A stretch of 31,728 nucleotides of DNA. It comes from a virus. Shown here one piece after another: positions 2,107-18,388 of the stretch. Both the position numbers and the translations under genes were made by a program. Within the stretch, counting starts at the first letter, position 1. The number at the start of each line of letters is the position of its first letter. The notes beneath the pieces were generated by a model. It worked only from the letters and a program-made list of their open reading frames with translations. It was not told where the DNA came from and ran no database searches. Where the stretch lies: positions 1-31,728 of the IMG/VR virus record IMGVR_UViG_3300017971_000617, one strand, 5' to 3'.

Positions 2107-2568
2107 TCAAACTGTAGTTGTAGTGGTCAATAAAGCATGCCGTTCAATTGTTCCTGATAAAATAATAGTTGTGGATGATATGGCAGTTCCCATATATTGC
2201 CTTCCCCGGGTATGCGTAAGCCCTCCTGCCACAGATGCTGAAAGATAGACAGCTCTCCCTGGAGTCCAAGACCAGCTACCATTCGTGACCGGCCCTACCC
2301 TTTGAACATTAATTTCATCATTTAAAACACCAGATACCAAAGCAAGCCCCAGGGCAGGGACATCATGGGTCCCATCTTGAGCCTTTTTATATTTAGTTTC
2401 TCCAATGAAAATACCAACGGCATCATATTGACTTACCGTTTCCCCCAGGGTGGCCAGCAAATTGGTATGGAGCACATCGTCAATCGTTTCCATATCACCG
2501 GACATAATGGTATCCCATCCCTGAACAGAATAATCAATCGTATGCAATCCATATTTGTCAGTCGTCAT
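2107..2568 (-). CDS. Virion-associated structural protein with poly-Thr tail
   Basis: The 153-aa product starts after AAAGGAG. The N-terminal half (GWDTIMSGDMETIDDVLHTN) is a helical segment of a type seen in small phage structural or fibre-tip proteins. The C-terminal half (VQRVGPVTNGSWSWTPGRAV, then LTHTRGRQYMGTAIS) looks like a small beta domain found in phage fibre and spike proteins. The chain ends in a run of five Thr and Val, the same ending as the 1647-aa tail protein. It lies directly downstream of the tail hub, the usual place for tail fibre or appendage genes. Structural role likely; exact position in the virion unknown. Confidence 0.6.
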   Translation of the reverse strand: MTTDKYGLHTIDYSVQGWDTIMSGDMETIDDVLHTNLLATLGETVSQYDAVGIFIGETKYKKAQDGTHDVPALGLALVSGVLNDEINVQRVGPVTNGSWSWTPGRAVYLSASVAGGLTHTRGRQYMGTAISSTTIILSGTIERHALLTTTTTV

Positions 2569-2580
2569 CTGCTTTCTCCT

Positions 2581-3981
2581 TTAAAATGATTTTTTGGTTA
2601 TTACTGTTGTTTGATCTGATTCATAAGTGATACCACCCGATTCAAGATAATTGGAAATCTTAAAAGTTATTTCATCTGCCGGGGTACCATTATCGGCAAC
2701 ATTCATGGCATTTGTATAAGTCCAGGTAGTGGAATTAATTGCTGATTGGGTTCTGACCAAAACGGATGAAACCCAAACCTCAATCTCAAAATACCCCTCT
2801 CGATCAGTCTCCGGCAAAACCACCCCAGGTAATCCAATACCAGCCCCTTCCCCTCTTTTTCTTGGAGTCCAGGTCAGAACGCAATTTCCCCCGCTTGTGT
2901 ATCGGCTGGCATAGGATACCCCATTGCAATCAAAATTCGTTGGTCTATATGGAGTTGATGATTCAGCAGCAATAGTTAAATCAATGGCAGTGGCTTCTGC
3001 TATATCCCCTGTTTGCTTTCCATTATAGGGGACCAGTTTGAACTTTCTATCAGCCCCATAAATGATCTCAGAATGACTGATCATCCCAGCGGATTTGCTA
3101 ACAAAATAAACATCAGCTAAGCCTGAATGATGCTCCTTTTCAGTTCCGTATCTGTTTCTGATAATTCCGGTCAATCGATATTGAACTCCGGAGATAGGAG
3201 TAATAGTTGTGAATGATAAAAGCTCGTCATTGATATATACCAAATTGCTTTCGCCGGCTAAAACAGCCCCCATCCCCGCTGATTCAATTCTTTCTTGTCC
3301 TTCCGTGAAATTTACCAAAATCCCGTCTTCGCCATCATCAAGCGTCCCAGTAATCGGATATGCCACTTCTAAAGTCCCATGTGCTGCCAAATTGAGCGAA
3401 TTAGATAGAAAGGTATAGGAATCCCCATCATCGATACTCATATAAACGTTAAAGCCGGTTAAATAATCACTGTTTTTCCCAGCCATTGGGATAAGTTGAG
3501 TTGAGTTGGGTGAAAGGACATAAGGGGCTTCCACCACTCTAATACTTTCCAGAGGATTAACCGTATAATCCGGCGGGGCTATCTGATTATCATCAGGATC
3601 GGTATAATCGTCTTGACTGATCGCCGAAACGGCAGCAAAGAAATCTTCAATGCAATGAATGGTGATATTTTCGGTATCAAGAGAATCCTCCTCAATATGT
3701 AGCACCCGGAGAACCATATTCGATATTCCGTATTTTGAATAACTCCATTTGAAAACATCCCCTACTTGCAATCTAAAGAGATTTCGATTAACCGGAATGT
3801 TAACCATTGCTAAAGGATATGATTCTTTCCTTAATTGCTGATTTGCCGCCCATACAGCATTTTTATTTGTGGTGAATAAACCAAGTTTAATCGTTTTCAC
3901 GACTGTCCGATCTTGAAGAACCTTATTCCCAACATCTTGTGAAATCGGATCTGATATTGATTGCTGAAAATCAATAGCCAT
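2581..3981 (-). CDS. Tail hub protein, C-terminal part (split gpJ/GTA gp15-like)
   Basis: The 466-aa product begins with sequence that normally lies inside a larger tail hub protein: KTIKLGLFTTNKNAVWAANQ, then RKESYPLAMVNIPVNRNLFR and LQVGDVFKWSYSKYGIS. These resemble the hub segment that deals with column-like loops of the tail-tip ring in phage host-specificity proteins. After about residue 130 come Pro-containing linkers and fibronectin/Ig-like beta domains (SPNSTQLIP, GFNVYMSIDDGDSYTFLS). The strong SD, seven G followed by AGG, lies between the stop of the upstream hub gene and this ATG. I read it as the detached C-terminal half of the hub, with the N-terminal half in the next gene upstream. 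Confidence 0.7.
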   Translation of the reverse strand: MAIDFQQSISDPISQDVGNKVLQDRTVVKTIKLGLFTTNKNAVWAANQQLRKESYPLAMVNIPVNRNLFRLQVGDVFKWSYSKYGISNMVLRVLHIEEDSLDTENITIHCIEDFFAAVSAISQDDYTDPDDNQIAPPDYTVNPLESIRVVEAPYVLSPNSTQLIPMAGKNSDYLTGFNVYMSIDDGDSYTFLSNSLNLAAHGTLEVAYPITGTLDDGEDGILVNFTEGQERIESAGMGAVLAGESNLVYINDELLSFTTITPISGVQYRLTGIIRNRYGTEKEHHSGLADVYFVSKSAGMISHSEIIYGADRKFKLVPYNGKQTGDIAEATAIDLTIAAESSTPYRPTNFDCNGVSYASRYTSGGNCVLTWTPRKRGEGAGIGLPGVVLPETDREGYFEIEVWVSSVLVRTQSAINSTTWTYTNAMNVADNGTPADEITFKISNYLESGGITYESDQTTVITKKSF

Positions 3982-3997
3982 TTTATTCCTCCCCCCC

Positions 3998-6019
3998 TTA
4001 ACTAAACTTGCTTATTCTGCAAAGACCAGTATCACTTCTTTGAATAGTAACCACTCGATCTTTACCAATTGCGCAATCTTCCCAAATACTTCTTATTGAC
4101 AATCCTGCTTCCATATCCTTATATTCAGCCCCATCGGTTGAATAATACATTGGAAAAGTGGTTCCATCAAGTGATGTATTGGGATTAAATACAGCAAATT
4201 TTCCATATCCAAAAGTACCAATGCTCCAGGCAACCGGAATATCCTCCGGCCCAACATTTGCAGCCCAGCCAAGTTCTTGCCTATTATAGCAACCGGAATA
4301 AATCAGGATATTGTTTCCATTTGAAAGAAGTCTTTTTCTTGGGTATTTATCTAATGAGCCAGGAGATTGACTTGCCGGCCCCCATGAATTCATGTGAGTA
4401 TCTGGCTCAATGCATTGAAATGTATGATTGTAATTTGGTGAAAAGAAATAATCTTTTAATCCAGCAGAACAACCACCATCACATTGATGATAATAGCCGA
4501 TAATATCAGTTTCAACATTAAGAACCGTTCCATTAGAAGTGGTATGGCATTTAGTAGAACCGCCCCCTCGCTGACTCACTACCCAAACCAATCCTGTCCG
4601 TTCGCTATAACAGATCTCTGATCCATTAACATAATCATATTCATGACATGAATTTGATTGCGTCCAATTAATTCCGTCAGCAGAAAATCCAATTGAATGA
4701 CTATAGGTGCAAATGAATCCGCCAAGTTCTGGAATCCATTCAATTGATTCCGCGGGAGCATTATTTGAGGTATCCACCCAAGTGACCCCACCATCATCTG
4801 AATATCGAACAATACTAGTTTTCATGCTGACGACCACAAATCTGCCTAAGCTCCCACCAAGGGTTGGGCTATAAGCAATGCCATATCCTGGGGCGTATCC
4901 ACCATTTTCAGAAACGATAACCGGTGGACGAATTGTCTTGATTTCCGTATATTGAACTTTAGTTTCATTCAGGGTATCAATCCAACTTTTTCGGGTAAAA
5001 GAAGGATCATCCAGACAATCAACTTCATCCAATGTTGGAATGGTGGCAATATCATAATCGTCTCTTATTAATTTAGGATGAAATTGGGCATCGGATCCAT
5101 ATCTCAAAATTCCGTCAATATGTTGATTGATTACCTGAATATAATCAAGGGCAGTTTGATCTCGATCTATTAACATTGAAATTCCCCGGCCTTCCAAAAG
5201 GAGAACGTCAGCCACTTCTTCAAATTCTGATTCATTTAACCAAGTTTCGTCAAGCTGGCAAAGATTATTCAAAATATACCAAATAGCATGCATTGGATTT
5301 GAATCAAAAGCCTGGCTTACAGCTGATTCATCCGGCAGAGTGACGGAGGGTTGCCTTCTGACTACAAATTTCATAGTTGGAGTTCGATTATATTCTCCAA
5401 TATGGCAATCATCAAAAAAGCACCAACAAAAATGACGCATGGGGGAATTCAAAGTATCATCAGGAAGAATTGATCCATAATTTGCATTCGCTTCCTGATC
5501 ATCCGTCCCAAAATAAAAGGTACAAGATCCCATCCCTTCCAGAGTAATTGTTTCCACTCCCCCGCTGGCTGGAATATCAAGCCCTGAATCATTCTCCCAC
5601 ACAATATCATTATTTTTATAAATGGTATAAATGGTATCAATTGGGCCAACGCAAATTCCAACAGCCCAACTCATATAATAGTTATAACCCACAATTTGAG
5701 GTTCGGGCTCGCTCCCCTTTCCTCCCCCTCCGGCAGAATCAGAATAAATGGCTTCATTTCTTTCAGCCCCATAAGCCAAAAGATGCCCGGTAATTTTAGC
5801 TGTCCCGCAAAGGTCTTTTACTGGATCACCGATCGTCGAGGTCATCACCTGCTCTTCAGGGCTGGGAAGACCAGTAGTTGGTAAATCTGGCATAACGGGG
5901 TCAAGCATCATTCCCCCAGCAAAACCGATAGAAGCCCCATAAACAGCCCCCATCGGACCACCAACGAAAAATCCAACAAATCCGCCTGCTACCCCGCCTA
6001 CAAGTGCACCTAAACTCAT
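3998..6019 (-). CDS. Tail hub protein, N-terminal part with C-terminal Asp-box beta-propeller
   Basis: The 673-aa product starts with a Gly-rich hydrophobic region (residues 1-40, GGVAGGFVGFFVGGPMGA), common at the N-terminus of phage tail hub proteins. Next come hub-type beta domains (VGYNYYMSWAVGICVGPIDT; residues about 95-360), ending near WIDTLNETKVQYTEI, which in related hubs leads straight into the sequence now found in the next gene. Residues about 362-673 are instead a repeat domain with Asp-box-like motifs: SDDGGVTW, SADGINW and STDGAEY. This suggests a sialidase/BNR or Ycf48-like propeller, perhaps binding host glycans. It sits at the tail tip, after the NlpC/P60 gene. Confidence 0.7.
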   Translation of the reverse strand: MSLGALVGGVAGGFVGFFVGGPMGAVYGASIGFAGGMMLDPVMPDLPTTGLPSPEEQVMTSTIGDPVKDLCGTAKITGHLLAYGAERNEAIYSDSAGGGGKGSEPEPQIVGYNYYMSWAVGICVGPIDTIYTIYKNNDIVWENDSGLDIPASGGVETITLEGMGSCTFYFGTDDQEANANYGSILPDDTLNSPMRHFCWCFFDDCHIGEYNRTPTMKFVVRRQPSVTLPDESAVSQAFDSNPMHAIWYILNNLCQLDETWLNESEFEEVADVLLLEGRGISMLIDRDQTALDYIQVINQHIDGILRYGSDAQFHPKLIRDDYDIATIPTLDEVDCLDDPSFTRKSWIDTLNETKVQYTEIKTIRPPVIVSENGGYAPGYGIAYSPTLGGSLGRFVVVSMKTSIVRYSDDGGVTWVDTSNNAPAESIEWIPELGGFICTYSHSIGFSADGINWTQSNSCHEYDYVNGSEICYSERTGLVWVVSQRGGGSTKCHTTSNGTVLNVETDIIGYYHQCDGGCSAGLKDYFFSPNYNHTFQCIEPDTHMNSWGPASQSPGSLDKYPRKRLLSNGNNILIYSGCYNRQELGWAANVGPEDIPVAWSIGTFGYGKFAVFNPNTSLDGTTFPMYYSTDGAEYKDMEAGLSIRSIWEDCAIGKDRVVTIQRSDTGLCRISKFS

Positions 6020-6064
6020 GATATCTCCTTTATTATTTTATTACCCTTGTGAATCAATCGGTAA

Positions 6065-6544
6065 TCATTGAGTAGAGCCCTTTTGCTGATCTTTAAGGAG
6101 TCTATAGGCGAATTTCATTTGCGCCCGAAATTTGGGGTCTGTGAATCGAATTCTTTTTACCCCTATTCTATTCAATGCCTGATAAACATATCCATCATGA
6201 AATAAGCCAGCGTGGCCAGAAGCCTTTCCATAATGAGAAAGGATAATATCACCCGTGATTAATTTATCGGTTAAACGCAATTTTTCTACGTTAAATTCCC
6301 GTTCCAATCCTTCCGCAAGTAATTCCTTGGTATTGTGCAAATGATAGTCTTTTGGATAGTCTGGCAGCTCCACCCGCTTAACCACACAAAGCCCAAGTTC
6401 TGCCAAGACCCCACCAACAAAATGGATACAATCACAGCCCATTCCTTTTACGCAAGTTTTATGCCTAAAAGGAGTATCCAACCATTCAGTCATAATCTGA
6501 ATCAAATTCTGTTTATTTTCCTGATCTTCAAAAAAGTATTCCAT
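6065..6544 (-). CDS. NlpC/P60-family tail-tip peptidase (gpK/GTA gp14-like)
   Basis: The 159-aa protein has the NlpC/P60 Cys motif GCDCIHFV, with Cys39 as the probable nucleophile, and the His motif SGHAGLFHDG with His111. In tailed phages this family cuts peptidoglycan peptides during DNA entry and sits at the tail tip; lambda gpK and GTA gp14 are the reference cases. Gene order supports this: it lies between the BR0599/gpL-like gene and the hub. Its start is 3 nt after the upstream stop, with only a weak SD (GGTGAT), so translation may depend on the upstream gene. Length is normal for the family. Confidence 0.85.
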   Translation of the reverse strand: MEYFFEDQENKQNLIQIMTEWLDTPFRHKTCVKGMGCDCIHFVGGVLAELGLCVVKRVELPDYPKDYHLHNTKELLAEGLEREFNVEKLRLTDKLITGDIILSHYGKASGHAGLFHDGYVYQALNRIGVKRIRFTDPKFRAQMKFAYRLLKDQQKGSTQ

Positions 6545-6547
6545 AAA

Positions 6548-7366: not shown

Positions 7367-7375
7367 GCTTTCTCC

Positions 7376-10300
7376 TTAAACGGTTGTTGTAGTCGTTGCA
7401 TTCATATCTACAATTGAATAGAAATTTGAGGGGTCATTCTGGTTATCATATTCGGTAGAAATCCAATCAGCAGATAAAGCCTGAGTACATACCCTGATTT
7501 CATCAATAACCCCGTCTAAATATCTGGAAGAACCATATAAAGTTGAGGCAGTTAAATTTGCACTGGAGTTGGATAGTCCACCTGTTTCAGAAGCACTATC
7601 TTGCAAAGCCCCATTTAAATAAAGGGCGCACCCTCCGGTTCCAAATTTCACATCAACTTTATAATCAGTCAATGCGCTGACCGGGCTGATTGTTTCAAGA
7701 AAAGTCCCCACTCCTGATCCATTTGAAACTCTACCAAAAAGATGATTGTCCGTCACATCTCCCAAGGCATCGTCTACCCCTATAACAAAATCATAGGGAT
7801 TTGTGCCGGCATTATCTTTACCAAGAATGGCATAATAATCAGAGGATGGCATTGTATCCAAATTTATCCAGGCCTGGGCAACTCCTGTGGAAACATCTAA
7901 GGAAGAATCAGAACCAAAGGATATATAATCGTCAGTCCCATCAAAATCAATACCATTTTCTATCTTAGCAGCAACGATATCATATGAATTCATTGTTCCA
8001 GAAGATGCCCCATCATTCCCATTTCCGGTTGAATCCAAAAGCTCCGGCAGATCCCAAACAGGAGTTCCCGAATAAACCTCAAAATTATCAAAATTTGCTT
8101 CAACTGTTTGGGTAACGGTAGAAATACATGCTAATTGAACCGTGACATTTGTGGTAGTATTCCAGGAGGATGCTGTGGAAAGGAGAGTCCAACTCGATCC
8201 TCCCCAATAATAAACACTAACAACTCCAGAAGTCCTTACTATTCTAAATTTTCCTGATTCATCAGAAGTAGTAACAGCAGACCCCTCGGTATACCATGTG
8301 GTTCCATTATAAGAAGCATGCCTATATCGATTTAAGCCAGATATGTATTCCCTATTAATCCGGTTATATCGTCCAGAAGAATCAGCGACAACCATAAAGG
8401 TATACCACTTCTCAGTAGTGGTCATCGTCGGCATTTCCCAATCAACCCGAATATCAAAATCACCGGAAAGTACAAAATTGGAAAGGACACTGCCGTATAA
8501 ACTTGCACCGCCCGTAGTAGTGAACAATTTATTTGCTTGGATGTCTACATCCCCATCCGATGCCCACCTATCAGAATCAGGGGCATCACCATTTGTTCCG
8601 GTAAAATCATCATCCGTTTCCGGAAATACTGGTTCCATATGGCAAACGACGGCATAATTAGACCAAACAGCATTTCTACCATAGGTTGCGGTCACTGCAG
8701 GCTCAGTATCTAATCCATTAACAAAAACATAAACGGTAGTATCCGCAGATGACGAAACAGATGGGACCTTGATATGTAATTCACCAGTTTTTGCGGTGGT
8801 ATCAAGCGTGACCACTTCTCTTGCTAATTCAGTCGTTAAAGAAGCATCGCTATAACATCTAATATCCCCGCCATCTTCCGTAACGATATCATAGAAAGAA
8901 TCAGGCATATCACTCAAATCAACATATAACGGATAATTGGAAAGAGTGCTATCCACCTTACTTGATGGAATGGTGATCGCATATAAGCCCGTGATGCCAG
9001 CAACCGTTGTTGAAGTCGATGTGGTTGAAGTCGATGTGGTTGAAGTCGATGTGGTTGAAGTTGATGCGGTAGTTGAAGTCGTTGAAGTTGTGGTCGTGGT
9101 CGTGGTCGTAGAAATTAAAGCCACATCTTTAACTGAATAAAAGGAGCTGGGATTATCCTGATTTTGGAATTCAACATCAATCCAATCAGCACTTAAAATA
9201 TCTTCCCTGAATCTGATCTCATCAAGAACCCCATCAAAATAAGCACCACTTCCTACCTTGTTTGCCCCTAATGAAAGTTCATGATCAGAATCGTCCTCAG
9301 CTGATCCAGATGGGGTATCACTTTCGGTGGCTGATCGATTCACCCCATCTAAATAAAAGAGGGGATTATTCGTATCTGAATCACTGTTATAAGTTAAATC
9401 TAATTTGTAGGTAGTCCCGGCTGAAACATATTCCCCATCCATTCTCCATCTACCGAACGATGTGGTAAAATCCTGCTGAAACTGAATATAAGGATCACTT
9501 GTTCTGAGTCCAATAAAATGGCCTTCCAGATTTGAAGAATTGGCTTTGTGATAGATTCTATTAAAAGATAAAACATCACAGTCAAACCAGCATTGAAAAG
9601 TTCCCCCGCCGGCGAATAGATTATCAAGGGTATTAAGATTATCGCAATCAAAAGTATCATTTGATCCATCAAGATCAAATCCGTCCCCAATCTGAGCAGT
9701 CACCATATCAGATTCAGTCATATTTGAACCGGCTGATACTCCGTGATTATGATTTCCAGTTGAATCAATTGCAACTGGAGGCCATTCAATCGTGCCTGTA
9801 GTAATCGTGAAATTATCAAAATCGGTAACTGAACCGCCATCAATATCACCATTGCATTCAATCCTGACGTCAACATCATTTGACCCAATGGAAGAACCGC
9901 TGTAAATTTTCCCCCCAGCAGATCCTTTCCAAGTCCAATCAGATCCATTCCAATACCAGAGAGTAAAATCGGATCCTGATCGTTTTATTCTAAATTTACC
10001 AGAAGTGAATGTTTCCCCTGCCCCGGTATCTGTGAGTACCCCGGTTCCCCCTACCCACACATCCTGGGAATCATCTGTTTCATGGGTCAATCGAATACCA
10101 ATCCAAGATACAAAATCAGTCAAAACTAATGATGCCGGATAACTTCTACCAGAGGATGGGGCATCACTTGATACCTTGGCATAATCAATTTGAATATCAA
10201 AATTACCACTTAAAATAAAATTTGATCTAATTTCAGAAGTGAAATCATTGGAATCATTTGGGACAGTCGCCCTCAATTTATTATTATTAATCTCGACAGA

Positions 10301-12319
10301 ATAGCCCGTTGTTTCAAGATCATGACCTGCCGATCTCCATAAAACGGGATCAGGGGGATCTCCGTTATCTCCGGTAAAATCATCATCAACCGAAGTTGGG
10401 CGCCTTTGCTCCATATGAAAGACCGCAGCATAATCAGCCCAAACGGCATCACGCCCATAGGTAGCATTTGTTGCCGGCTCAGTTCCTAATCCATCAACAT
10501 AAACATAAACTTTGGTATCTGTGGATGATGAAACCGAAGGAACTTTCATATGCAATTGACCGGTTTTAGCAGAAGTATCAATCGTAACCACTTCTCTTGC
10601 TATTTCGGTCGTTTTTGAAATATCTGAATAGCATCTAATATCCCCGCCATCGGAGGTGACCACACTAAAAAATGGGTCAGGCATATCACTCAAATCAACA
10701 TATAACGGATAATTGGAAAGAGTGCTGTCCACCGAACTTGCCGGAATGGTGACTTCAACAAGCATATTTCCCGGCAATCCGGTTGTTGATGTTGTTGATG
10801 TTGATGTTGATGTTGATGATGAAGTTGAAGTCGTGGAACCCGTAACGGTGGTTGATGAAGTTGAAGTCGTCGATGATGAAGTCGTTGTGGAGCCCGTAAC
10901 GGTGGTTGATGAAGTTGAAGTCGTGGAAGCCGTATAAGTATGAGTCGTTGAGGTCGTCGATGTGGAGCCCGTAACGGTGGTTGATGAAGTTGTGGTTGAT
11001 GTTGATGATGAAGTTGAAGTCGTGGTTGATGATGATGAAGTCGTGGAGGTCGTTGATGAAGTTGTGGAGGTCGTGGTCGTCGTTGATGAAGTTGTGGTCG
11101 TCGTTGTTGAGGTGGTCGTCGGGCTGGGGGCTTCCTGGGAAATGGTATTGAAATTCATTTGAATATCACCCAGGCTATCAGTCACATATTGAACTTCTAA
11201 TTCATCTTGATTAAATCGGCAAAGATTCAAAAAGCAAATCTTGATGCCTGGCAATTCAGCAAGCGAAACATCTTTACCAATCGGCTTATTGAAAGTTATC
11301 GTTGTCCCGGTGGCCCTCAAAACTCCCATTTCAATCTGCGTGCCATCTGGAAAAAGCATAATCATCCAGGTGCCACCCTTGGTATAAAGCCAATAATCAT
11401 CAAAATCGATATCTTCGATTGTAAGGGTCACATCACTTGATGAAATAGCATCAGTGATCTTTAAATCATCAACCCATGAAGGTCTCCAAAAAGCTCCCCA
11501 TCTTCCTTTATGATAATCAAAGAAATCTGTTAACCGCTTAATCACCTGTTTTTCATCAGGCATATAGACCGCTTCAAATTTGATTTCTGTATTATCTTGA
11601 TGAGTCCAGGAGGTGGCCAATCCATAATATTGAAGCAGATCTGAATTATGCCATTGATCACCGATTAATTCATTTGCCCAGTTTGGAGGAGTATTCAAAA
11701 CCGGGTAATCTCTGAATGTTGGATAATGGCTGATTGATGGGGTATTTCTTGTGATGCCCTGGTCAAACTCTTCCATGAATTCCATTTGAATTTCAGACAT
11801 TCGGTTGGTCATATTTCCGAATTTTTGACTTGACCTAATTCTTGCTTTTAAGATAGGGTAAACTTTGGCATTGATTCCCCAGGCATATAAGCAATTTTCA
11901 ACAGAAGTGATAGTTGTTCCCGTGAAAGAATCCACTGTTAAAATTTCATAGGTATCTTTATCCGTCATGATGGTGAATTCACCACCAATTTCAAGATCCA
12001 TATATTCAGTGGAATCAACTTGAAAAGTAGAATCAGCTACCAAGGCGGCTGAAGTCAGGTGCATTTCATTTGGCCATATAGGACAGCCCCAAATATTCGG
12101 TATATTGCGGTGGAGCTTTTTCTTGACGTAAGCCATATCTGAATATTTAACGGCGCTTACAGAGTAGCTTAGCGTCCGCCTGGGCCATGAAAGAATAGCA
12201 GATCTCTTTTCTCTATTGGTCAATCCAATCTGTAAAGAGGTGTGCCACTTCCTTTTCAAAGAAACAATATTTGCCCAATCTGGCTTTAGCATGAAATAAT
12301 CATTTACCACGGTTGCCAT
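7376..12319 (-). CDS. Giant distal-tail protein with tandem DUF2341/lectin units and Thr/Ser linkers
   Basis: The 1647-aa product starts after AGGAG. Residues 1 to about 398 form a tail-tip domain (FFDYHKGRWGAFWRPSWVDD) at the gene position of GTA gp12/DUF2460 distal tail proteins. A Thr/Ser-rich stretch (about 400-512) follows. Unit A (about 513-1068) and unit B (about 1107-1640) are near-duplicates: a DUF2341 domain (TLSNYPLYVDLSDMPD, then DGGDIRCYSD), an inserted lectin-like domain starting DDDFTG, and a LamG/concanavalin-type domain starting at DSTGN (GIDFDGTDDYISFGS in B). A second Thr/Ser linker (about 1069-1106) joins the units; the end is a run of five Thr and Val. Likely a glycan-binding adsorption protein attached to the distal tail. 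Confidence 0.8.
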   Translation of the reverse strand: MATVVNDYFMLKPDWANIVSLKRKWHTSLQIGLTNREKRSAILSWPRRTLSYSVSAVKYSDMAYVKKKLHRNIPNIWGCPIWPNEMHLTSAALVADSTFQVDSTEYMDLEIGGEFTIMTDKDTYEILTVDSFTGTTITSVENCLYAWGINAKVYPILKARIRSSQKFGNMTNRMSEIQMEFMEEFDQGITRNTPSISHYPTFRDYPVLNTPPNWANELIGDQWHNSDLLQYYGLATSWTHQDNTEIKFEAVYMPDEKQVIKRLTDFFDYHKGRWGAFWRPSWVDDLKITDAISSSDVTLTIEDIDFDDYWLYTKGGTWMIMLFPDGTQIEMGVLRATGTTITFNKPIGKDVSLAELPGIKICFLNLCRFNQDELEVQYVTDSLGDIQMNFNTISQEAPSPTTTSTTTTTTSSTTTTTSTTSSTTSTTSSSSTTTSTSSSTSTTTSSTTVTGSTSTTSTTHTYTASTTSTSSTTVTGSTTTSSSTTSTSSTTVTGSTTSTSSSTSTSTSTTSTTGLPGNMLVEVTIPASSVDSTLSNYPLYVDLSDMPDPFFSVVTSDGGDIRCYSDISKTTEIAREVVTIDTSAKTGQLHMKVPSVSSSTDTKVYVYVDGLGTEPATNATYGRDAVWADYAAVFHMEQRRPTSVDDDFTGDNGDPPDPVLWRSAGHDLETTGYSVEINNNKLRATVPNDSNDFTSEIRSNFILSGNFDIQIDYAKVSSDAPSSGRSYPASLVLTDFVSWIGIRLTHETDDSQDVWVGGTGVLTDTGAGETFTSGKFRIKRSGSDFTLWYWNGSDWTWKGSAGGKIYSGSSIGSNDVDVRIECNGDIDGGSVTDFDNFTITTGTIEWPPVAIDSTGNHNHGVSAGSNMTESDMVTAQIGDGFDLDGSNDTFDCDNLNTLDNLFAGGGTFQCWFDCDVLSFNRIYHKANSSNLEGHFIGLRTSDPYIQFQQDFTTSFGRWRMDGEYVSAGTTYKLDLTYNSDSDTNNPLFYLDGVNRSATESDTPSGSAEDDSDHELSLGANKVGSGAYFDGVLDEIRFREDILSADWIDVEFQNQDNPSSFYSVKDVALISTTTTTTTTSTTSTTASTSTTSTSTTSTSTTSTSTTVAGITGLYAITIPSSKVDSTLSNYPLYVDLSDMPDSFYDIVTEDGGDIRCYSDASLTTELAREVVTLDTTAKTGELHIKVPSVSSSADTTVYVFVNGLDTEPAVTATYGRNAVWSNYAVVCHMEPVFPETDDDFTGTNGDAPDSDRWASDGDVDIQANKLFTTTGGASLYGSVLSNFVLSGDFDIRVDWEMPTMTTTEKWYTFMVVADSSGRYNRINREYISGLNRYRHASYNGTTWYTEGSAVTTSDESGKFRIVRTSGVVSVYYWGGSSWTLLSTASSWNTTTNVTVQLACISTVTQTVEANFDNFEVYSGTPVWDLPELLDSTGNGNDGASSGTMNSYDIVAAKIENGIDFDGTDDYISFGSDSSLDVSTGVAQAWINLDTMPSSDYYAILGKDNAGTNPYDFVIGVDDALGDVTDNHLFGRVSNGSGVGTFLETISPVSALTDYKVDVKFGTGGCALYLNGALQDSASETGGLSNSSANLTASTLYGSSRYLDGVIDEIRVCTQALSADWISTEYDNQNDPSNFYSIVDMNATTTTTV
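8901..8950. repeat. 50-bp exact direct repeat, copy 1
   Basis: This copy encodes the start of the DUF2341 domain of unit B in the giant tail protein. It is identical over 50 bp to 10677-10726, 1.78 kb away. The surrounding domains are similar only at protein level, so this stretch is unusually well kept. Confidence 0.9.
10677..10726. repeat. 50-bp exact direct repeat, copy 2
   Basis: This copy encodes the start of the DUF2341 domain of unit A and is identical to 8901-8950. Recombination between the copies would remove or add exactly one lectin unit in frame, since 1776 bp is divisible by three. Confidence 0.9.
10782..11120. repeat. Low-complexity Thr/Ser-coding tract with embedded repeats
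   Basis: On the plus strand this is made of GTT/GTC/GTG/GAT/GAA-like triplets; on the coding strand it gives over 100 residues, nearly all Thr and Ser. A 24-bp unit beginning CCCGTAACGGTGG occurs three times exactly (10839-10862, 10893-10916, 10968-10991) and encodes the STTVTGS islands. Plus-strand ORFs here are Val/Asp/Glu artefacts. Confidence 0.9.
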
Positions 12320-12329
12320 ATTATTTCTC

Positions 12330-15146
12330 CTAACTTCTGAGGATTCGTTTCACAGCCTCTGATTTTGAATTGATCACATTTAGTACTGCATTTTGACCGC
12401 TGGCAGATGATAGATATTGATCTAATTCTCTTGGATCTGAAACGTTGATCATTGTAATTTCAGTTGATCCATTTCCGCGCTGCCCTGGCATCTGAGCACC
12501 AGAACTCACCAATCCACCATCAGCAAAACGATTCTGCCTTCCCTTTGCGATTAATCCACCGGTAGCATATCCAGCAAAGGCCCCTCGTGGAATTGATTTA
12601 CGCCTGATCGCTTCCATTACTCCTTTGCCATAATAATCAACGGCAGAAACTGGTTGCATAAATTCACCGGCGGTCGCCATAATTCCAATATTATCAGCTT
12701 TCGCGTGAGGAGAATACCCGGGAACTTCACCACCATCAGCCAATCCTGTTGAAGCAATCGTTGCTAATTGGACAGCCCCCATTGCGCCAGTTGCTATGGC
12801 TAATGGAATATTTGGCAAAGCCTTTGTTATAGCAGCAGCTATATTTATTGTGGCCTCAGCAAGGGCAGCTGCTTTGGCTATATAAAATAACTCTTTATTC
12901 TTTTCTCCGGTCATTTGATATAATTTGGTGAATACATCAGCGGTTCCCTGTGCTATTGTTTTGAAATTATTAAGACGATATTCCTGTAATTTCAAAGCCT
13001 GATCAGCAGCTTGCTGTTCTTTTTCAAGTGTTTGTAATCTGGATTGTTCGGCAATGGCATCTTTTTCAGCCTGGGTGGCCGCTTCAATTTCAGCCTCTGA
13101 TGCCTTTCTATCACGGAGGGCTTGAAGCTGTTCTTCATGAAATTTTTTAACGATCTGCATTTCCTGGTTTTGCTTATTCTGCAGATCACTTATTTCTTTT
13201 TGAAAATCTGCTTCTATAGCAGTTTGACCTTCTACTCGAAGACGTTGTTGTTGATCTTGTAAGGCCTTATCGGCATTCAATTTCAATTTATTTAGTTTTT
13301 CTTTTGATTTCAAAAGATCAGCATCAAGTTTATCCTGGTCTGTCTTAGCTTCCTGGGCAAGTTTAATTTTTTCAGTTTGGTAGGCCTGATCCAGGGCGAA
13401 TAATTTGGCATTCAAAGCAGCCTTTTTATCAGGATCATTCGAGGCTGCCAATTGTTGTTCTAAAATCTTTCTCTCAGCTTCGATCTTTTGAGCCACAATG
13501 GATAATCTGCGGTCATAATAATCGGATAATGAGATCAGTTTATTTTCGTAATCTGCTTCAAGTTTGGCAGATTCGGTAGCCAGGGCGGCATTGATTTTTA
13601 TCAGAGATGCTTTCAAGATGGATTCTATGCTGGCGGCAGGAACTATATTTTTAACAATTTTATCACCGACCTTTTTAGTCCCTTTTCCGATTGGCCCGGT
13701 ATCCTCCACCGATTTTTCAAGCTCGGATCTCATTTCTTTTGTGATGGCTCTGACTACTTTGCCCCCTGATTCTGCTAAAGGATCTTCCGCAGTTCCATAC
13801 AGATTATTTATATCCTTAACAAAACCATCCATAGCAGCTTTAGCAAGATCAAACTGACCCGTGATGAGTCCCCCGGCTGCGATGGCTAATGATGAAATGG
13901 CGGACAATCCGTTATAAATTCGGGTAAGACCGGTAATCATAAAGTCGAAGATCTCGATAACCCCTTCGCCCCATCCCTGGAGATTGCCATTCTCCTGCAT
14001 TTGCTTTACAGCATCGGTGATAGCCCTTATCCAATCCCTAAACGTGGATAAAACGATAGTTACCTCGGGGCCAAAGGCTTCCCCAAGTTGAATTTTAAAT
14101 GATTCAATTACAGAAGCGGTTTTCCTAAGTTGACCACCAAGTCCTGCTTCCATCTGATCAGCAATTTCTTTAGAGGTTCCCCCCGCTGCCCTTAATTCTT
14201 TAATTAAATCTTCCAGCCCCTGTGATCCCTGATTGACCAAAGCCTGTAATGCTGGGCCGGCCCTTTCCCCAAATGCTGCCAATGCTTCGTCACCGGAGAG
14301 CCCGGCGGCTTCCAATTGTTTAATGACTTCAACAAATCCTATGAAATCACCCTCAGAATCCTTTACTCGTAAAGTCGTCTGACCAATCCTGGCTCCCAGT
14401 TTTGCCATTGCTTCTGCTTCTTTGGCTGTTGGAGCAAGTAAAGCGCCTATTGCGTTTTTGAGATTAGTTCCTGCTAAGGATCCTTTTTGACCGGCATCAC
14501 CGAGTTTACCAATAGTGGCTAATAGATCTTCGAAGTCACCCCCAACACCTTTTGAAAGGGAGCCCACATATTTAAATGATTCACCAATTTCAATTAAATT
14601 GGTATTAGATGAGGTAAAAGTTTTCGCCAGAACATCATTAACTCTTTCAAGATTACCCACTTCCAATCCAAAAGCACTCAAAACATTCGTGGCAATATCT
14701 GCTGCATCCCCTAATTCCAGAGCACCAGCGGCGGCAAGATTTAAAACACCTGGTAGGGCTTCTGCTGCTTCTGCTGCTTCAAAACCAGCCATTCCAAGAA
14801 ATCGGAGGGCTTCAGCGGCATTGGAGGCAGTATATCGGGTTTCAGCCCCCATCTTTTTTGCCACTTCCGTCATATGCTCCAGTTCTTCCGCTGTGGCAGA
14901 TGTAACGGCTCCTGCTGCCCTCATATTATCGTCGAAATCAGCAAAAGTTTTTATTGCATTACCGAATAAAGCCCCACCAGCTAAGAGTGATGCAACACCA
15001 GCCAATTGGGTATACATATTGTTTAACCCCTTGGCTGATTTTTGGGCGCCTTTCCCTATCTTCCCTAAATCGGAGTTCAGGTTTTGAAGACCCCGTTTAG
15101 CAGCATTTTGGAAGGTCACCTTGATATTCATATTCTCGGTAGCCAT
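12330..15146 (-). CDS. Tail tape measure protein (TP901 family)
   Basis: The 938-aa product starts after AAGGAGAT. Residues about 60-330 hold the TP901 tape-measure core (FADFDDNMRAAGAVTSATAE, then ALRFLGMAGFEAAEAAEALP and GSLAGTNLKNAIGALLAP). A coiled-coil part rich in Lys, Glu, Gln and Ala spans about 510-740. A hydrophobic segment (about 760-800; AAALAEATINIAAAITKALP) and a Gly-rich C-terminal part follow. Tape measure proteins set tail length and are ejected before DNA; by the lambda relation of about 1.5 angstrom per residue the tail would be of medium length, roughly 140 nm (inference). It lies directly after the chaperone frameshift pair, as expected. Confidence 0.95.
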   Translation of the reverse strand: MATENMNIKVTFQNAAKRGLQNLNSDLGKIGKGAQKSAKGLNNMYTQLAGVASLLAGGALFGNAIKTFADFDDNMRAAGAVTSATAEELEHMTEVAKKMGAETRYTASNAAEALRFLGMAGFEAAEAAEALPGVLNLAAAGALELGDAADIATNVLSAFGLEVGNLERVNDVLAKTFTSSNTNLIEIGESFKYVGSLSKGVGGDFEDLLATIGKLGDAGQKGSLAGTNLKNAIGALLAPTAKEAEAMAKLGARIGQTTLRVKDSEGDFIGFVEVIKQLEAAGLSGDEALAAFGERAGPALQALVNQGSQGLEDLIKELRAAGGTSKEIADQMEAGLGGQLRKTASVIESFKIQLGEAFGPEVTIVLSTFRDWIRAITDAVKQMQENGNLQGWGEGVIEIFDFMITGLTRIYNGLSAISSLAIAAGGLITGQFDLAKAAMDGFVKDINNLYGTAEDPLAESGGKVVRAITKEMRSELEKSVEDTGPIGKGTKKVGDKIVKNIVPAASIESILKASLIKINAALATESAKLEADYENKLISLSDYYDRRLSIVAQKIEAERKILEQQLAASNDPDKKAALNAKLFALDQAYQTEKIKLAQEAKTDQDKLDADLLKSKEKLNKLKLNADKALQDQQQRLRVEGQTAIEADFQKEISDLQNKQNQEMQIVKKFHEEQLQALRDRKASEAEIEAATQAEKDAIAEQSRLQTLEKEQQAADQALKLQEYRLNNFKTIAQGTADVFTKLYQMTGEKNKELFYIAKAAALAEATINIAAAITKALPNIPLAIATGAMGAVQLATIASTGLADGGEVPGYSPHAKADNIGIMATAGEFMQPVSAVDYYGKGVMEAIRRKSIPRGAFAGYATGGLIAKGRQNRFADGGLVSSGAQMPGQRGNGSTEITMINVSDPRELDQYLSSASGQNAVLNVINSKSEAVKRILRS

Positions 15147-15149
15147 TCA

Positions 15150-15416
15150 TTATCTCCTTTTCATAAACTGACCCCACTTTCGGTCGTCTGCTAATCGGGC
15201 CACTCTAAAAGCTATGGCCATATCCTTTCTGTTATCGTTTTTGATGAATTGATGCTCATTCAAAGCCATAACAAAAAAACTATAGCCATAGGAAAGGACG
15301 TTCGTATGTCCTGCTTCTATAAGATGGCAAGCATCTTTGAAAAGTTGCTCATATGCTTTTGAATTGTTTTGCTGACCATTTCCGGAATTTTTAGTTTTTC
15401 CAGTACTCCTAAAAAA
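15150..15416 (-). CDS. Tail assembly chaperone T-part, expressed by -1 frameshift (gpGT-like)
   Basis: This frame has no usable start of its own. It is open from the slippery site inside the upstream gene to a TAA 3 nt before the tape measure ATG. After the shift it reads RSTGKTKNSGNGQQNNSKAY and continues through ACHLIEAGHTNVLSYGYSFF and ARLADDRKWGQFMKRR. A -1 shift at 15410-15416 joins it to the first 115 residues of the upstream protein, giving about 201 aa. This matches the lambda gpG/gpGT arrangement, in which the T extension binds tube protein and the G part binds the tape measure. Frame, position and heptamer all agree. Confidence 0.85.
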   Translation of the reverse strand, partial: FFRSTGKTKNSGNGQQNNSKAYEQLFKDACHLIEAGHTNVLSYGYSFFVMALNEHQFIKNDNRKDMAIAFRVARLADDRKWGQFMKRR

Positions 15417-15754
15417 GTCGCGTTCACCTCCTTAAAACCATCGTACAATTCTGCGACATCGGAAGGTGCCAGGGGTTTAAGATCAACTAATTGAAAATCA
15501 CAAATTTTTGCCATGATTTCAGAAATGGTAGCCCCGTACTGAGTCAGATCCTCCATAAGTCCTTTTTCTGCTTCGGTATCAGCCGGGTCCTCTCCGTTTT
15601 GGGATTTCTTGGCATCAGGAGTCGCAGATTGCGTAAAGAAAGCATTTTGCTGGCTTAAATCAAGTATGTCCTGAATGGACAATTCCTTGATTGTAAAATC
15701 TTTCGTACTCCCATCATCAAGTTCTATTTTAACGGTCTTTACTTTTCTTGCCAT
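15317..15754 (-). CDS. Tail assembly chaperone G-part (gpG-like)
   Basis: The 145-aa product lies between major tail protein and tape measure genes, the standard place of tail assembly chaperones. It starts MARKVKTVKIELDDGSTKDF, a short beta N-terminus, and then becomes helical and acidic (FTIKELSIQDILDLSQQ). The family helps the tape measure fold and recruits tube subunits during tail assembly and is absent from the mature virion. Its normal stop is at 15317; a fraction of ribosomes would shift at the UUUUUUA site at 15410-15416 into the T frame. The SD (GGACGG) is moderate. Confidence 0.85.
   Translation of the reverse strand: MARKVKTVKIELDDGSTKDFTIKELSIQDILDLSQQNAFFTQSATPDAKKSQNGEDPADTEAEKGLMEDLTQYGATISEIMAKICDFQLVDLKPLAPSDVAELYDGFKEVNATFLGVLEKLKIPEMVSKTIQKHMSNFSKMLAIL
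15410..15416 (-). promoter_or_regulatory. Programmed -1 frameshift heptamer UUUUUUA
   Basis: The sense strand reads ACT TTT TTA GGA in the chaperone frame, which places T TTT TTA exactly in X XXY YYZ phase. This is the same heptamer used by HIV-1 gag-pol. Slipping back one base lets both tRNAs re-pair fully or nearly so and enters the T frame, open to the base before the tape measure leader. Confidence 0.8.
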
Positions 15755-15776
15755 CTTTGTCCGTCCCTATCCTATT

Positions 15777-16370
15777 TTAAGCAGTTGTTGTTGTGGTGCT
15801 GGTGGTTGTCGTGGTGATCATCTTATAATCGAAGTACGGGCTGGATGCATGATTTGCAGTATCAGCAAGCCCCTCCGCCAGATAAGACATGGTTAGATAT
15901 TCATCACCGATTAATTGCATTGGACCATTCGGCTTAATCGTCGTTCTCCTGAAAAAGGCGATTGACTGTGGGCCAATGGGGTTATTTGAAACAAAGATAA
16001 TGGCATATTCTTTGTCCGCTCCCTGCATACCAGCAATTGTTCTGGTGGCTTCATCCAAAGTACCGAGCAAAAACATATTCAGGTTGGAAGCTGCCACTTC
16101 ATCCAGGGTAAAATTGAGAGAATATTCAAGGGTGGTGATAGGATTCAGATCTTTGAGATTGATTCCTTCCCTGCTTGAATAATGGGGTCTGTTTTCAGTA
16201 GCCGGCTCAATCTCGAAAGACGGAGCATTACCGATGTCGACAAAATCACCGAGCGACCCGGCTTCATATGCTGTGGGATAAGTAGGGGGCGTGGTTCCAA
16301 CCCAAGGCCCCACATACATAATTCCCCTGCCCGCAGGAACATATAAACTCGTGCTATGCGGAATAGTCAT
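15777..16370 (-). CDS. Major tail tube protein with Thr-rich C-terminus
   Basis: The 197-aa product begins MTIPHSTSLYVPAGRGIMYV and carries the beta-rich layout of tail tube subunits (GDFVDIGNAPSFEIEP, then LEYSLNFTLDEVAASNLNMF). Its place just before the chaperone pair and the tape measure supports this. The last 12 residues are only Thr, Ser and a final Ala (TTTTTSTTTTTA), added beyond the folded domain and likely exposed on the tube surface. Translation starts after AGGAGG; the start follows the stop of the tail terminator gene directly. Expect hundreds of copies per virion, which makes the tail a high-density tag. Confidence 0.85.
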   Translation of the reverse strand: MTIPHSTSLYVPAGRGIMYVGPWVGTTPPTYPTAYEAGSLGDFVDIGNAPSFEIEPATENRPHYSSREGINLKDLNPITTLEYSLNFTLDEVAASNLNMFLLGTLDEATRTIAGMQGADKEYAIIFVSNNPIGPQSIAFFRRTTIKPNGPMQLIGDEYLTMSYLAEGLADTANHASSPYFDYKMITTTTTSTTTTTA

Positions 16371-16820
16371 TTAAATTCCTCCTGTATCATGGACATATTT
16401 GTGAATGGCGGTGATCTGGAAAGCAGCAAAAGGTTTCCACAGATTCACCTTCTCATTTAATTCAAGGGTGGTCTCGATGCATAATCCGTCCCGGGTTTGG
16501 TCTTGATATAGAGCAGCCCAGCAATCATCAGCTACATTACTAATCATGGAATCCATATCTGAATTTACTTGCAAATACACAAAGATATCCGTTTTCAATT
16601 CTGATATAATTTGATCAACATTTACTCGACGATCACTAAACTTTTCTAATGGGGTGGGCATTCTTCCGACAACGGCAGAAACAGGAAATTGTGTTTGAGC
16701 ATAGCACTTTAAGCTGGTATAATCCGGCATCACTCTTTGAGCGGTTTCCACAGCAGGAACTGCCGTGATTAGATTATAATCAGCGGTTATGATTTGCTCT
16801 CTCTTACTATTCTCAGCCAT
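16371..16820 (-). CDS. Tail terminator / tail completion protein
   Basis: The 149-aa product (MAENSKREQIITADYNLITA, then RMPTPLEKFSDRRVNVDQII) has the alpha/beta look of small tail terminators (lambda gpU or HK97 gp10 neighbours), with a closing beta strand TTLELNEKVNLWKPFAAFQI. It lies between the minor head-tail protein and the tail tube gene, where terminators usually are. These proteins cap the tail tube and form the head-joining ring. Start supported by AAGGGT; the stop is adjacent to the tube gene start. The assignment rests on size, order and general look rather than on a catalytic motif. Confidence 0.6.
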   Translation of the reverse strand: MAENSKREQIITADYNLITAVPAVETAQRVMPDYTSLKCYAQTQFPVSAVVGRMPTPLEKFSDRRVNVDQIISELKTDIFVYLQVNSDMDSMISNVADDCWAALYQDQTRDGLCIETTLELNEKVNLWKPFAAFQITAIHKYVHDTGGI

Positions 16821-16825
16821 AATCT

Positions 16826-17293
16826 TTACCCTTTTGAATCAATGAGTTTTTGATAATATGATCTTACAATTTTCATTATGCCTTTTATATCATCCTGATT
16901 CAGAGCAAAGAACTCTCGATCCTCATTCAGAAAAAAGGCTTTCTCCGGATTTCTTGCCCCGGAGGAGTCGGTTGTATTCATAAAAAAGATATCAACGGAA
17001 TTCCGGTCATACTCAGCCGTCATGGCGGACAGCATAGAGCCAGTACGGGTCAAATCAACAAAGTTTACTTGATACCCATCCTTGGCCCTCTCTTTGGCAT
17101 AAAAGGGGTTATATGGCTTAAAATCAACACCATCCACATCTTCCCCTAAAATGGTTCTGGCCTTAATCTGGCGCATAGCAAAGAAACCAATATCACCCAT
17201 CATAGGGCGAGCAAAAGCCGTGTTTTCCAGGGCCTTTGCTTTTTGTTTGATTCCTGCTAAGCCATCAATTGTTAATGTGATCTTGCCAGCCAT
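16826..17293 (-). CDS. Virion morphogenesis / head-tail joining protein (Mu gpG-like)
   Basis: The start at 17293 (MAGKITLTIDGLAGIKQKAK) is preferred to an ATG 10 codons upstream because AAGGGCG precedes it and because the stop of the in-frame extension of the upstream gene ends just one base before it. The 155-aa product contains PYNPFYAKERAKDG, and a DLTRTGSMLSAM segment, both typical of the phage virion morphogenesis family (Mu gpG, HK97 gp10-like). These act in joining or completing tails. It lies between adaptor and tail terminator genes. Confidence 0.7.
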   Translation of the reverse strand: MAGKITLTIDGLAGIKQKAKALENTAFARPMMGDIGFFAMRQIKARTILGEDVDGVDFKPYNPFYAKERAKDGYQVNFVDLTRTGSMLSAMTAEYDRNSVDIFFMNTTDSSGARNPEKAFFLNEDREFFALNQDDIKGIMKIVRSYYQKLIDSKG

Positions 17294-17294
17294 T

Positions 17295-17363
17295 TTACGC
17301 CCTTGACAAACGCCTTGGAGCATTCATCTTATATTCATCATACTCAATTGCGCCGGAATCATT
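17295..17363 (-). other. In-frame coding-like extension after the adaptor stop codon
   Basis: Directly after the TAA of the adaptor gene the same frame stays open for 22 codons (DSGAIEYDEYKMNAPRRLSR in the core) and ends in TAA one base before the ATG of the next gene. Perfect fit to the next start suggests that the adaptor once ended here, or that the first TAA is sometimes read through. Confidence 0.45.
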
Positions 17364-17735
17364 TTAATCATATGAAAGCCCCATACCAATGATAGTATCG
17401 AATTCGTTGCCGAATAGTTTAGCAAACAAATCCATATTCCTTTCAAAGCCATCTGGTTCAGGGCAATCTTTCATGAGAATCATATAAGCGAATTCTAAGG
17501 TTTTATAACATTCAAGACGAGTCAACGCCCCATCCTCAACCTTTGTGGGATCAAATAGCGTCAAAGTAGGATCAACCCCTTGAACCTTGGCTGCTTGATT
17601 ATACCAGCGAGCAACCAGCATCCGGTTAATCACATCAAATGCTTCAAGCCGCTGTTTTTCCCAATCATCAACGCCAAGGTCAAGAATATTGCTTCTATAG
17701 GTCAACAGGTCCTGATCTGTGCAATAAGTCGCCAT
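17364..17735 (-). CDS. Head-tail connector / adaptor protein (gp6-like)
   Basis: The 123-aa helical product (MATYCTDQDLLTYRSNILDL, with EKQRLEAFDVINRMLVARWY) has the 'T-D-Q-D-L' N-terminus and helical bundle style of phage adaptor proteins (HK97 gp6, lambda gpW/SPP1 gp15 analogues). Such proteins form a ring beneath the portal. It lies downstream of the capsid genes and upstream of head-tail joining genes, as expected. The SD AAGGGAG is strong. The ORF stops at a TAA after GMGLSYD, but the same frame continues open to the next gene (see the extension entry), so the ancestral protein may have been 145 aa. Confidence 0.7.
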   Translation of the reverse strand: MATYCTDQDLLTYRSNILDLGVDDWEKQRLEAFDVINRMLVARWYNQAAKVQGVDPTLTLFDPTKVEDGALTRLECYKTLEFAYMILMKDCPEPDGFERNMDLFAKLFGNEFDTIIGMGLSYD

Positions 17736-17747
17736 GACTTTCTCCCT

Positions 17748-18095
17748 TTAAATGGTGGAGCCTTCCTGAACAACCGGGACATTTACCCCTTTCTTTTCAT
17801 TGATTCCCCGGTGGGCGCCAACTTTAATATCATCAGGGTTGGCCCCTTCCGTATTGATGGAATCCCCAGGAATATAAACTAAAACATCCGGAGGTTCAGT
17901 CGCATCAACGGGAATTTGAGGATAACCTTTATCCAGCAGAATCTTTGCTACTCTGATATCATCAGTTGTGAAAGATCCGCCTTCAAAATCGGCCAATGCC
18001 CGGTTGTTATCAGGATCCCAAACTACTTTGGCCAGGTTCGATTTATAAAACCTGAACTCCTGTTTTTCATTCACTTTTGGATTATTCCGTTTCAT
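17748..18095 (-). CDS. Small head-associated protein of unknown function
   Basis: The 115-aa product (MKRNNPKVNEKQEFRFYKSN, then ALADFEGGSFTTDDIRVAKI) has a compact beta/alpha N-terminal part with a 'phenylalanine/tyrosine-K' strand, and a flexible Pro/Gly-rich C-terminal part. Similar short proteins are encoded after the capsid gene in phages with SU10-type capsids, and may be head-completion, decoration or capsid-stabilising proteins. It lies between the Thr/Ser-tailed 66-aa gene and the adaptor. I cannot assign a specific function. The SD (AAAGG) is moderate. Confidence 0.65.
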   Translation of the reverse strand: MKRNNPKVNEKQEFRFYKSNLAKVVWDPDNNRALADFEGGSFTTDDIRVAKILLDKGYPQIPVDATEPPDVLVYIPGDSINTEGANPDDIKVGAHRGINEKKGVNVPVVQEGSTI

Positions 18096-18136
18096 AATTT
18101 TCTGCCTTTCTTATGAATGGTTAAATTAAGCCACCA

Positions 18137-18337
18137 TTAAGCGGTAGTTGAAGTGGTGGTTGATGAAGTTGATGAAGTTGATGAAGTGGAACTGGTCGTT
18201 GAAGTAGTGGTAGTCGACCAGACCCCGCTCACCTGCAGATGTCTGTTCAGAGCTTTAAAATAATTCCTTTGCTCTGGATAAATAGCAGGGTTGGTTTCCA
18301 TGAACTTCCGTTCTTTTTTATAGTCCTCGTTTGCCAT
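18137..18337 (-). CDS. 66-aa protein with long Ser/Thr C-terminal tail
   Basis: Start 18337 is preferred over an ATG two codons upstream, which is too close to the GGGAG SD. The first 40 residues (MANEDYKKERKFMETNPAIY, then NYFKALNRHLQVSGVWS) look like a small helical head; the last 24 residues are only Thr and Ser plus a final Ala. This gene directly follows the major capsid gene, the usual place for a decoration or fibre protein. The short folded part could bind the capsid surface and expose the tail. Function is inferred; the composition is seen. Confidence 0.6.
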   Translation of the reverse strand: MANEDYKKERKFMETNPAIYPEQRNYFKALNRHLQVSGVWSTTTTSTTSSTSSTSSTSSTTTSTTA

Positions 18338-18388
18338 GGTCATTCTCCCTTTAAAAGGTTAAAGTATCAGATCCCGGGTAATCCCTTA

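Follow-up and report, generated by a model that had tools for sequence, protein, structure and literature searches.

The phage represented by the IMG/VR record IMGVR_UViG_3300017971_000617 and dozens of its relatives probably coat their own particles with sugars, as judged from their predicted proteins and gene order. Several of their virion proteins end in tails that consist of Thr and Ser, here called tags, and a phage-encoded GT4-type glycosyltransferase (GT) accompanies these tags within the group. We consider it reasonably likely that the tails are dedicated glycan acceptors, which would be O-glycosylated in the cytoplasm and would provide the virion with a glycan coat.

Thr/Ser tags on virion proteins

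The analyzed stretch of 31,728 nucleotides (the window) spans the whole 31.7-kb record. It comprises a siphovirus-type late region with an SU10-type capsid protein, a tail tube protein, a tape measure, a tail-tip protein and a hub, and every recognised gene lies on the minus strand (Table 1). Rfam and tRNA searches of the window gave no match. A first-pass annotation had reported Thr/Ser tracts on four proteins, attached outside folded domains. All four were confirmed, as terminal tracts and, in the tail-tip protein, two additional internal linkers. The latter protein is composed of a tail domain, a Thr/Ser linker, a DUF2341+LamG module, a second Thr/Ser linker, a second DUF2341+LamG module and a TTTTTV end. 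Its gene carries an internal duplication (window positions 8400–11000), as the two DUF2341+LamG modules are 77% identical over 300 nt. In the major tail protein (MTP), the tract covers residues 186–196, followed by Ala and the stop codon. The small protein next to the capsid gene is tagged as proposed (residues 43–67, again followed by Ala and the stop codon), but it counts 68 amino acids from the first ATG instead of 66.

Table 1. Features of the window discussed in the text (MTP, major tail protein; GT, glycosyltransferase; aa, amino acids).
Feature	Position	Strand	Remarks
SU10-type major capsid protein	18389..19354	-	PF17236, 1.5e-63; untagged; query for relatives
Small tagged protein, directly 3' of the major capsid gene	18137..18343	-	Conserved anchor of ~40 aa and C-terminal Thr/Ser tag (18143-18217)
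Major tail (tube) protein, MTP	15777..16370	-	phrog_807, 2.5e-20; tag TTTTTSTTTTT-A at 15783-15815
Tail-tip protein, 1647 aa	7376..12319	-	phrog_1082 tail domain, aa 11-502
Thr/Ser linker 1 of the tail-tip protein (113 residues)	10781..11119	-	Residues 401-513
Thr/Ser linker 2 of the tail-tip protein (36 residues)	9005..9112	-	Residues 1070-1105
C-terminal TTTTT(V) tag of the tail-tip protein	7382..7396	-	
Probable virion protein, 153 aa	2107..2568	-	C-terminal TTTTTV at 2113-2127
GT4-type glycosyltransferase, GT	2..1048	-	Truncated by the window end; 57% identity to L094
Sulfotransferase-like gene	27796..28503	-	Tag association not supported

The tags are phage features and not sequence noise. 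Chance is excluded as the source of the terminal tracts: at least five terminal Thr/Ser residues occur in four out of 34 window ORFs versus none of the 1,356 ORFs drawn from random viral loci totalling 1.08 Mb (Fisher p = 3e-7). The tracts are not microsatellites, because the four Thr codons are used evenly in the window (ACT 28%, ACC 28%, ACA 21%, ACG 22%); together with the low synonymous identity between tags, this led us to reject an origin by slippage. The placement outside folded domains is borne out for the MTP. Its AlphaFold model shows a confident tube core, which matches the YSD1/Chi major tail protein in Foldseek (E 2e-9), and a disordered tag (block mean pLDDT about 50).

A scan of viral contigs with the capsid protein yielded 80 relatives. 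The genome scan with the same query found no relative, and a scan with the hub protein found no useful relative except a near-identical record. In about 50 of the relatives, tags end both the small capsid-adjacent ORF and the tail tube protein, and the tail-tip protein is usually tagged as well where the contig extends to it. The small protein has the same architecture in these approximately 50 relatives, i.e., an anchor of roughly 40 residues and a tag. In the tube protein, the tag begins immediately behind the last strand and the last conserved stretch (SPYFxV), and a Thr- or Ser-type tag terminates 32 of the 32 aligned homologues. Most tail-tip homologues stop at a C-terminal tag that corresponds to linker 1 of the window, behind which the window protein carries its two DUF2341+LamG modules. 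In L425, the homologue of the 153-aa protein carries a tag of 13 residues and is encoded immediately before the GT. The number of C-terminally tagged proteins varies from two to eight per genome.

Some relatives deviate from this layout. Two Ser-type phages (L018:10259-10647 and L013:7237-7610) encode tandem copies of the small tagged protein next to the capsid gene, and one subgroup has, behind this protein, an extra ORF that is more than half poly-Thr (L034:8861-9418, L038:1671-2063, L042:3382-3744, L046:4521-4877). A protein encoded between the capsid and tail tube genes carries N-terminal Thr/Ser tracts in L043 (4984-5481), L044 (4020-4517) and L049 (11783-12262), opposite to the C-terminal position that is otherwise the rule. 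The 68.7-kb contig L056 encodes a capsid protein that is 72% identical to that of the window in a phage that is otherwise different and lacks tags and GT, a pattern that an exchange of the capsid gene would explain.

In seven relatives, these sites bear tags of the Ser type (SSSSDSSTSSESSSSTT, SASSESS or poly-Ser), of which the SASSESS type resembles, in our view, the repeats of SRR adhesins. On a five-gene tree of 46 phages, parsimony requires four Thr/Ser state changes, three of which are forced by branches with an SH-aLRT of at least 95, while a capsid-only tree forces no more than one. Wherever both tags are readable, the small protein and the MTP switch from Thr to Ser together. Within genomes, the two tags end in the same residue in 18 out of 28 cases, compared to an expectation of 7.4 (p < 5e-5, a coherence statistic uncorrected for phylogeny), and the Ser shares of the two proteins are correlated (r = 0.90). 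Synonymous codons at matched tag positions agree in 34% within a genome versus 24% between genomes, and part of this agreement is due to codon usage. As this agreement reaches only 34%, the likeness of tags within a genome is not the result of recent DNA copying. Selection on the tags is seen to act at the protein level.

A GT4-type glycosyltransferase and its gene cluster

The glycosyltransferase predicted by the first-pass annotation proved to be a real gene, though truncated: 349 out of about 433 amino acids are present, and the record end cuts the copy before the second Glu of the EX7E motif. The GT4 signature residues (EX7E motif and Arg/Lys phosphate-binding pair: R241, K245, E337 and E345) are invariant in 47 homologues. 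The model of a homologue shows a confident GT-B fold (pLDDT 94.7). Its top structural matches in the PDB are GT4 enzymes, with a local E of about 1e-11 and low global TM-scores of 0.3–0.4; they reflect a generic GT4 fold, with no polypeptide-specific relative among them. A sequence search of the PDB gave no clear relative, and the family has no match in 50,697 named phage records. Among the relatives, six GTs are 46–57% identical to that of the window and five about 28–29%.

The GT is the first gene of a glycan cluster, the rest of which lies outside the window and was read in the relatives, where it comprises GT4, GT2, methyltransferase and hexapeptide-acyltransferase genes. In some relatives, the GT is located directly downstream of tagged structural genes. 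The Ser-tagged phage L018 lacks the window-type GT and has a different set of GTs; a Radical SAM/SPASM-type gene also lies within its glycan cluster (L099:5142-6233). A candidate GT for the Ser type (c44, 785 aa) was scanned for and gave six loci, all without tags in their flanks, and no link was shown. On a contig binned as Pacearchaeota (L428:8818-11182), a relative of the GT with 29% identity comes immediately after a protein that contains an (SSST)n tract of 90 residues.

The proposal of the first-pass annotation that the tags might carry sulfated sugars did not hold for the window phage. Its sulfotransferase has two motifs, RSGSKYI and RNPVKVIQS, which we take to be both PAPS-type motifs of sulfotransferases, and the Sulfotransfer_3 profile matches at E = 2.6e-4 with 21.7 bits, below the cut-off of 27 bits. 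However, the gene was found elsewhere only in the near-identical record and is located by the terminase, outside the glycan cluster. Because it is neither conserved nor part of the cluster, sulfation is unsupported for this phage, and the gene was rejected as a member of the tag system.

The idea of sulfate does have support in relatives, where it relies on predicted genes other than that of the window. In G007, G015, G021, G024 and G025, the cluster contains a different sulfotransferase-like gene beside a UDP-sulfoquinovose-synthase-like (SQD1-like) gene. The SQD1-like epimerase matches NF041015 at 4.9e-98, with a score of 328.6 bits that stays below the NCBIfam equivalog cut-off of 575. It is homologous to the SQD1 structure over its full length (E 5e-94) and retains the S/T, Y and K residues that presumably form the active site. 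The gene is found at L098:7904-9142 and also in L103, L106, L107 and L108; no copy was seen in the window itself and none matched in the named phage records.

Co-occurrence of tags and glycosyltransferase

The window's GT is present in all 11 Thr-tagged relatives whose contigs extend to the region. A scan with the GT alone gave 59 loci. Among 37 records new to the study, two of which nearly duplicate one another, 29 show five or more strand-specific Thr/Ser-tract matches, compared to none of 32 random viral records (p = 2e-12). When only GT records of 35 kb or longer without a detectable relative of the window-type tube protein are counted, 18 of 22 remain positive for tracts; as records may be fragments, the missing tube protein does not prove a different phage backbone. 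Conversely, G051, G054, G055, G061 and the short record G047 have the GT with (almost) no Thr/Ser tract, and one MTP of the family (G061, L443) is untagged although the GT is present. The relatives without tags, which are distant capsid homologues, also lack the window-type tail protein; with another tail protein, they do not constitute a clean natural tag knockout.

The association between tags and GT is largely confined to related phages. An unbiased search for seven Thr followed by Val or Ala and a stop codon gave at least 120 stretches, so Thr tails are common in environmental phages. Among 25 long records from this search, only three carry the window-type GT. The tags are therefore broader than this GT family, to which they are strongly linked only in the group of phages studied here. 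Any GT4-type enzyme was found in 11 of these 25 records versus six of 25 random ones, which is no clear enrichment (p = 0.23). Tags in phages that lack the enzymes had been named as evidence against the first-pass proposal, and here the outcome is divided, as the co-occurrence among the Thr-tagged relatives supports the proposal and the wider virosphere partly contradicts it. Seven of the eight other GT-bearing records from the unbiased search share one large GT4-type protein. They form a second Thr-tagged group (L444–L450, n = 7, tails like PTTTTTTTV), in which this protein is about 670–1160 amino acids long and 45–89% identical.

The window's GT also occurs in two Deltaproteobacteria MAGs, and the host of the window phage may correspondingly belong to the Desulfobacterota. 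In both MAGs, all long Thr/Ser tracts of the whole genome sit on the phage contig, which rules out that the tags are a host habit there. In the Desulfobacteraceae MAG, the 71.6-kb contig that carries the GT also encodes a tagged tube protein and has bacterial-looking genes beyond the cluster. On this prophage-like contig, a membrane acyltransferase-like gene is encoded on the opposite strand between the tagged tail genes and the GT (L427:9060-9917).

A possible virion glycan coat and its alternatives

In the proposed mechanism, the tags would project outward from the tail tube, the tail tip and, carried by the small anchor protein, the capsid. Late in infection, a soluble phage-encoded GT4-type enzyme would add the first sugar to the Thr residues of the tag in the host cytoplasm. 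The glycan would then be extended and decorated by other enzymes of this late cluster (further GTs, methyl- and acyltransferases), and some relatives may add a sulfoquinovose-type sugar and/or sulfate to it. The outcome would be a glycan coat on the assembled virion. Virions of tailed phages assemble in the cytoplasm, hence an acceptor tag would need a soluble cytoplasmic enzyme, a profile that a GT-B enzyme fits. That the tags are acceptors for the GT, as the first-pass annotation suggested, agrees with the conserved sites and the co-occurrence in the related group; the glycosylation itself, comprising the action of the GT on the tags, the sugar linkage and the surface location of the small protein, is what we infer. 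The coat may serve shielding, solubility or adhesion, among which surface shielding and a changed adsorption in sediment seem the most plausible to us.

The tags might also act unmodified, as flexible hydrophilic tails or linkers (spacers, an entropic brush or weak adhesion), with the sugar genes serving otherwise. Two of the tail-tip tracts are plain inter-domain linkers, Thr-tagged phages without a recognised GT exist, and arguably any low-complexity tail evolves in parallel within a genome. We nevertheless regard this as unlikely given a composition restricted to Thr and Ser and free of the Gly, Pro, Ala, Glu and Gln that are typical of linkers, the unrelated proteins that end in the same residue with different codons, the concerted switching from Thr to Ser and the co-occurrence with the GT. 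A role of the GT cluster in lysogenic conversion or receptor masking, acting on host LPS or surface glycans, with the adjacency to tail genes reflecting shared ancestry, appears rather improbable too. The cluster of the Desulfobacteraceae contig does lie at the end of a prophage-like region, near a bacterial-looking glycerol-3-phosphate-dehydrogenase-like ORF and adjoining the membrane acyltransferase-like gene, and GT2, GT9-like, acetyl- and sulfotransferase genes are also typical of surface polysaccharides. Yet, the GT accompanies tags in those 18 of 22 records without a detected relative of the tail protein, the GT set differs where the tags turned to Ser (L018), and in relatives the GT directly follows the tagged structural genes.

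At the DNA level, the repeats could be recombination or slippage tracts for the exchange of tail modules, with a peptide that has no role. The internal tracts indeed flank the duplicated DUF2341+LamG modules (77% identical DNA), and homologues terminate where linker 1 of the window begins. As the sole cause, this explanation is very improbable in view of the even use of the four Thr codons, the low synonymous identity between the tags of one genome, which indicates old, protein-level maintenance, and the small tagged proteins, which have no module behind their tag. A modification of phage DNA bases by the GT is hardly credible. Some phage GTs are known to glycosylate hypermodified DNA (literature cited in PMC12619734), but here the link is to tagged proteins and not to base-synthesis genes, the latter having been covered unsystematically, and the clusters include sulfotransferase and SQD1-like genes.

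Under the favoured reading of the tags as glycan acceptors, the closest parallel is the virion glycosylation of mycobacteriophages (Che8 and others), which likewise involves a phage-encoded GT. There, capsid and tail-tube subunits are reported to bear glycans at their C-termini (Freeman 2023, cited in PMC12619734), and in cluster O phages an O-methyltransferase adjoins the GTs (PMC11600133). Here, the putative acceptors are C-terminal Ser/Thr residues of the tube and capsid-associated proteins. The MCP and MTP of Che8 end in the short ...NKTGS and ...SDGS, without a Thr/Ser tract, whereas the tags described here are long and dedicated, and the capsid tag is carried by a separate small capsid-adjacent protein instead of the MCP. 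The GT family without a match among named phages and the SQD1-like gene of the relatives further set this group apart.

The Ser/Thr-rich tracts of SRR adhesins are glycosylated intracellularly by GtfA/GtfB (PMC5578698), and their glycan is O-acetylated, similar to what the acyltransferases of the phage clusters may suggest. In contrast, no GtfB partner or accessory Sec system was recognised in the phage clusters read, GtfA is absent among the 50 structure matches listed for the phage GT, and the phage proteins are assembled in the cytoplasm, not exported. SQD1 makes UDP-sulfoquinovose in plants and its relative Agl3 serves glycoconjugates in Sulfolobus, i.e., the S-layer glycan (PMC4388408), while the phage SQD1-like gene resides beside a GT and a sulfotransferase. 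The Ig-like domains of phage MTPs are also C-terminal accessory additions, and the window MTP matches the PHROG 'major tail protein with Ig-like domain'; however, it lacks such a domain, and its tube domain ends in a Thr/Ser tag.

Virion glycosylation itself is documented mainly in mycobacteriophages; what would be new here is its putative realisation through dedicated, portable, residue-coded tags. Tentatively, this may be extended to a general tag-and-cluster system in which interchangeable low-complexity tails can be fused to any surface virion protein. Each phage would rely on a single residue, Thr or Ser, as the code that its own polypeptide GT matches, with the code switching in concert, and some lineages with sulfate-reducer hosts (a host assignment that is itself putative) would use sulfonated or sulfated sugars. 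The unrelated group L444–L450, with its different conserved GT, would then make the strategy convergent. If the tags are acceptors, virion glycosylation would be widespread among uncultured phages, and the genetically portable acceptor with its matched enzyme would make a useful glycosylation tag. The concerted Thr/Ser switching constitutes a natural experiment on enzyme specificity, and phage-encoded UDP-sulfoquinovose-synthase-like genes would represent a new kind of phage metabolic gene.
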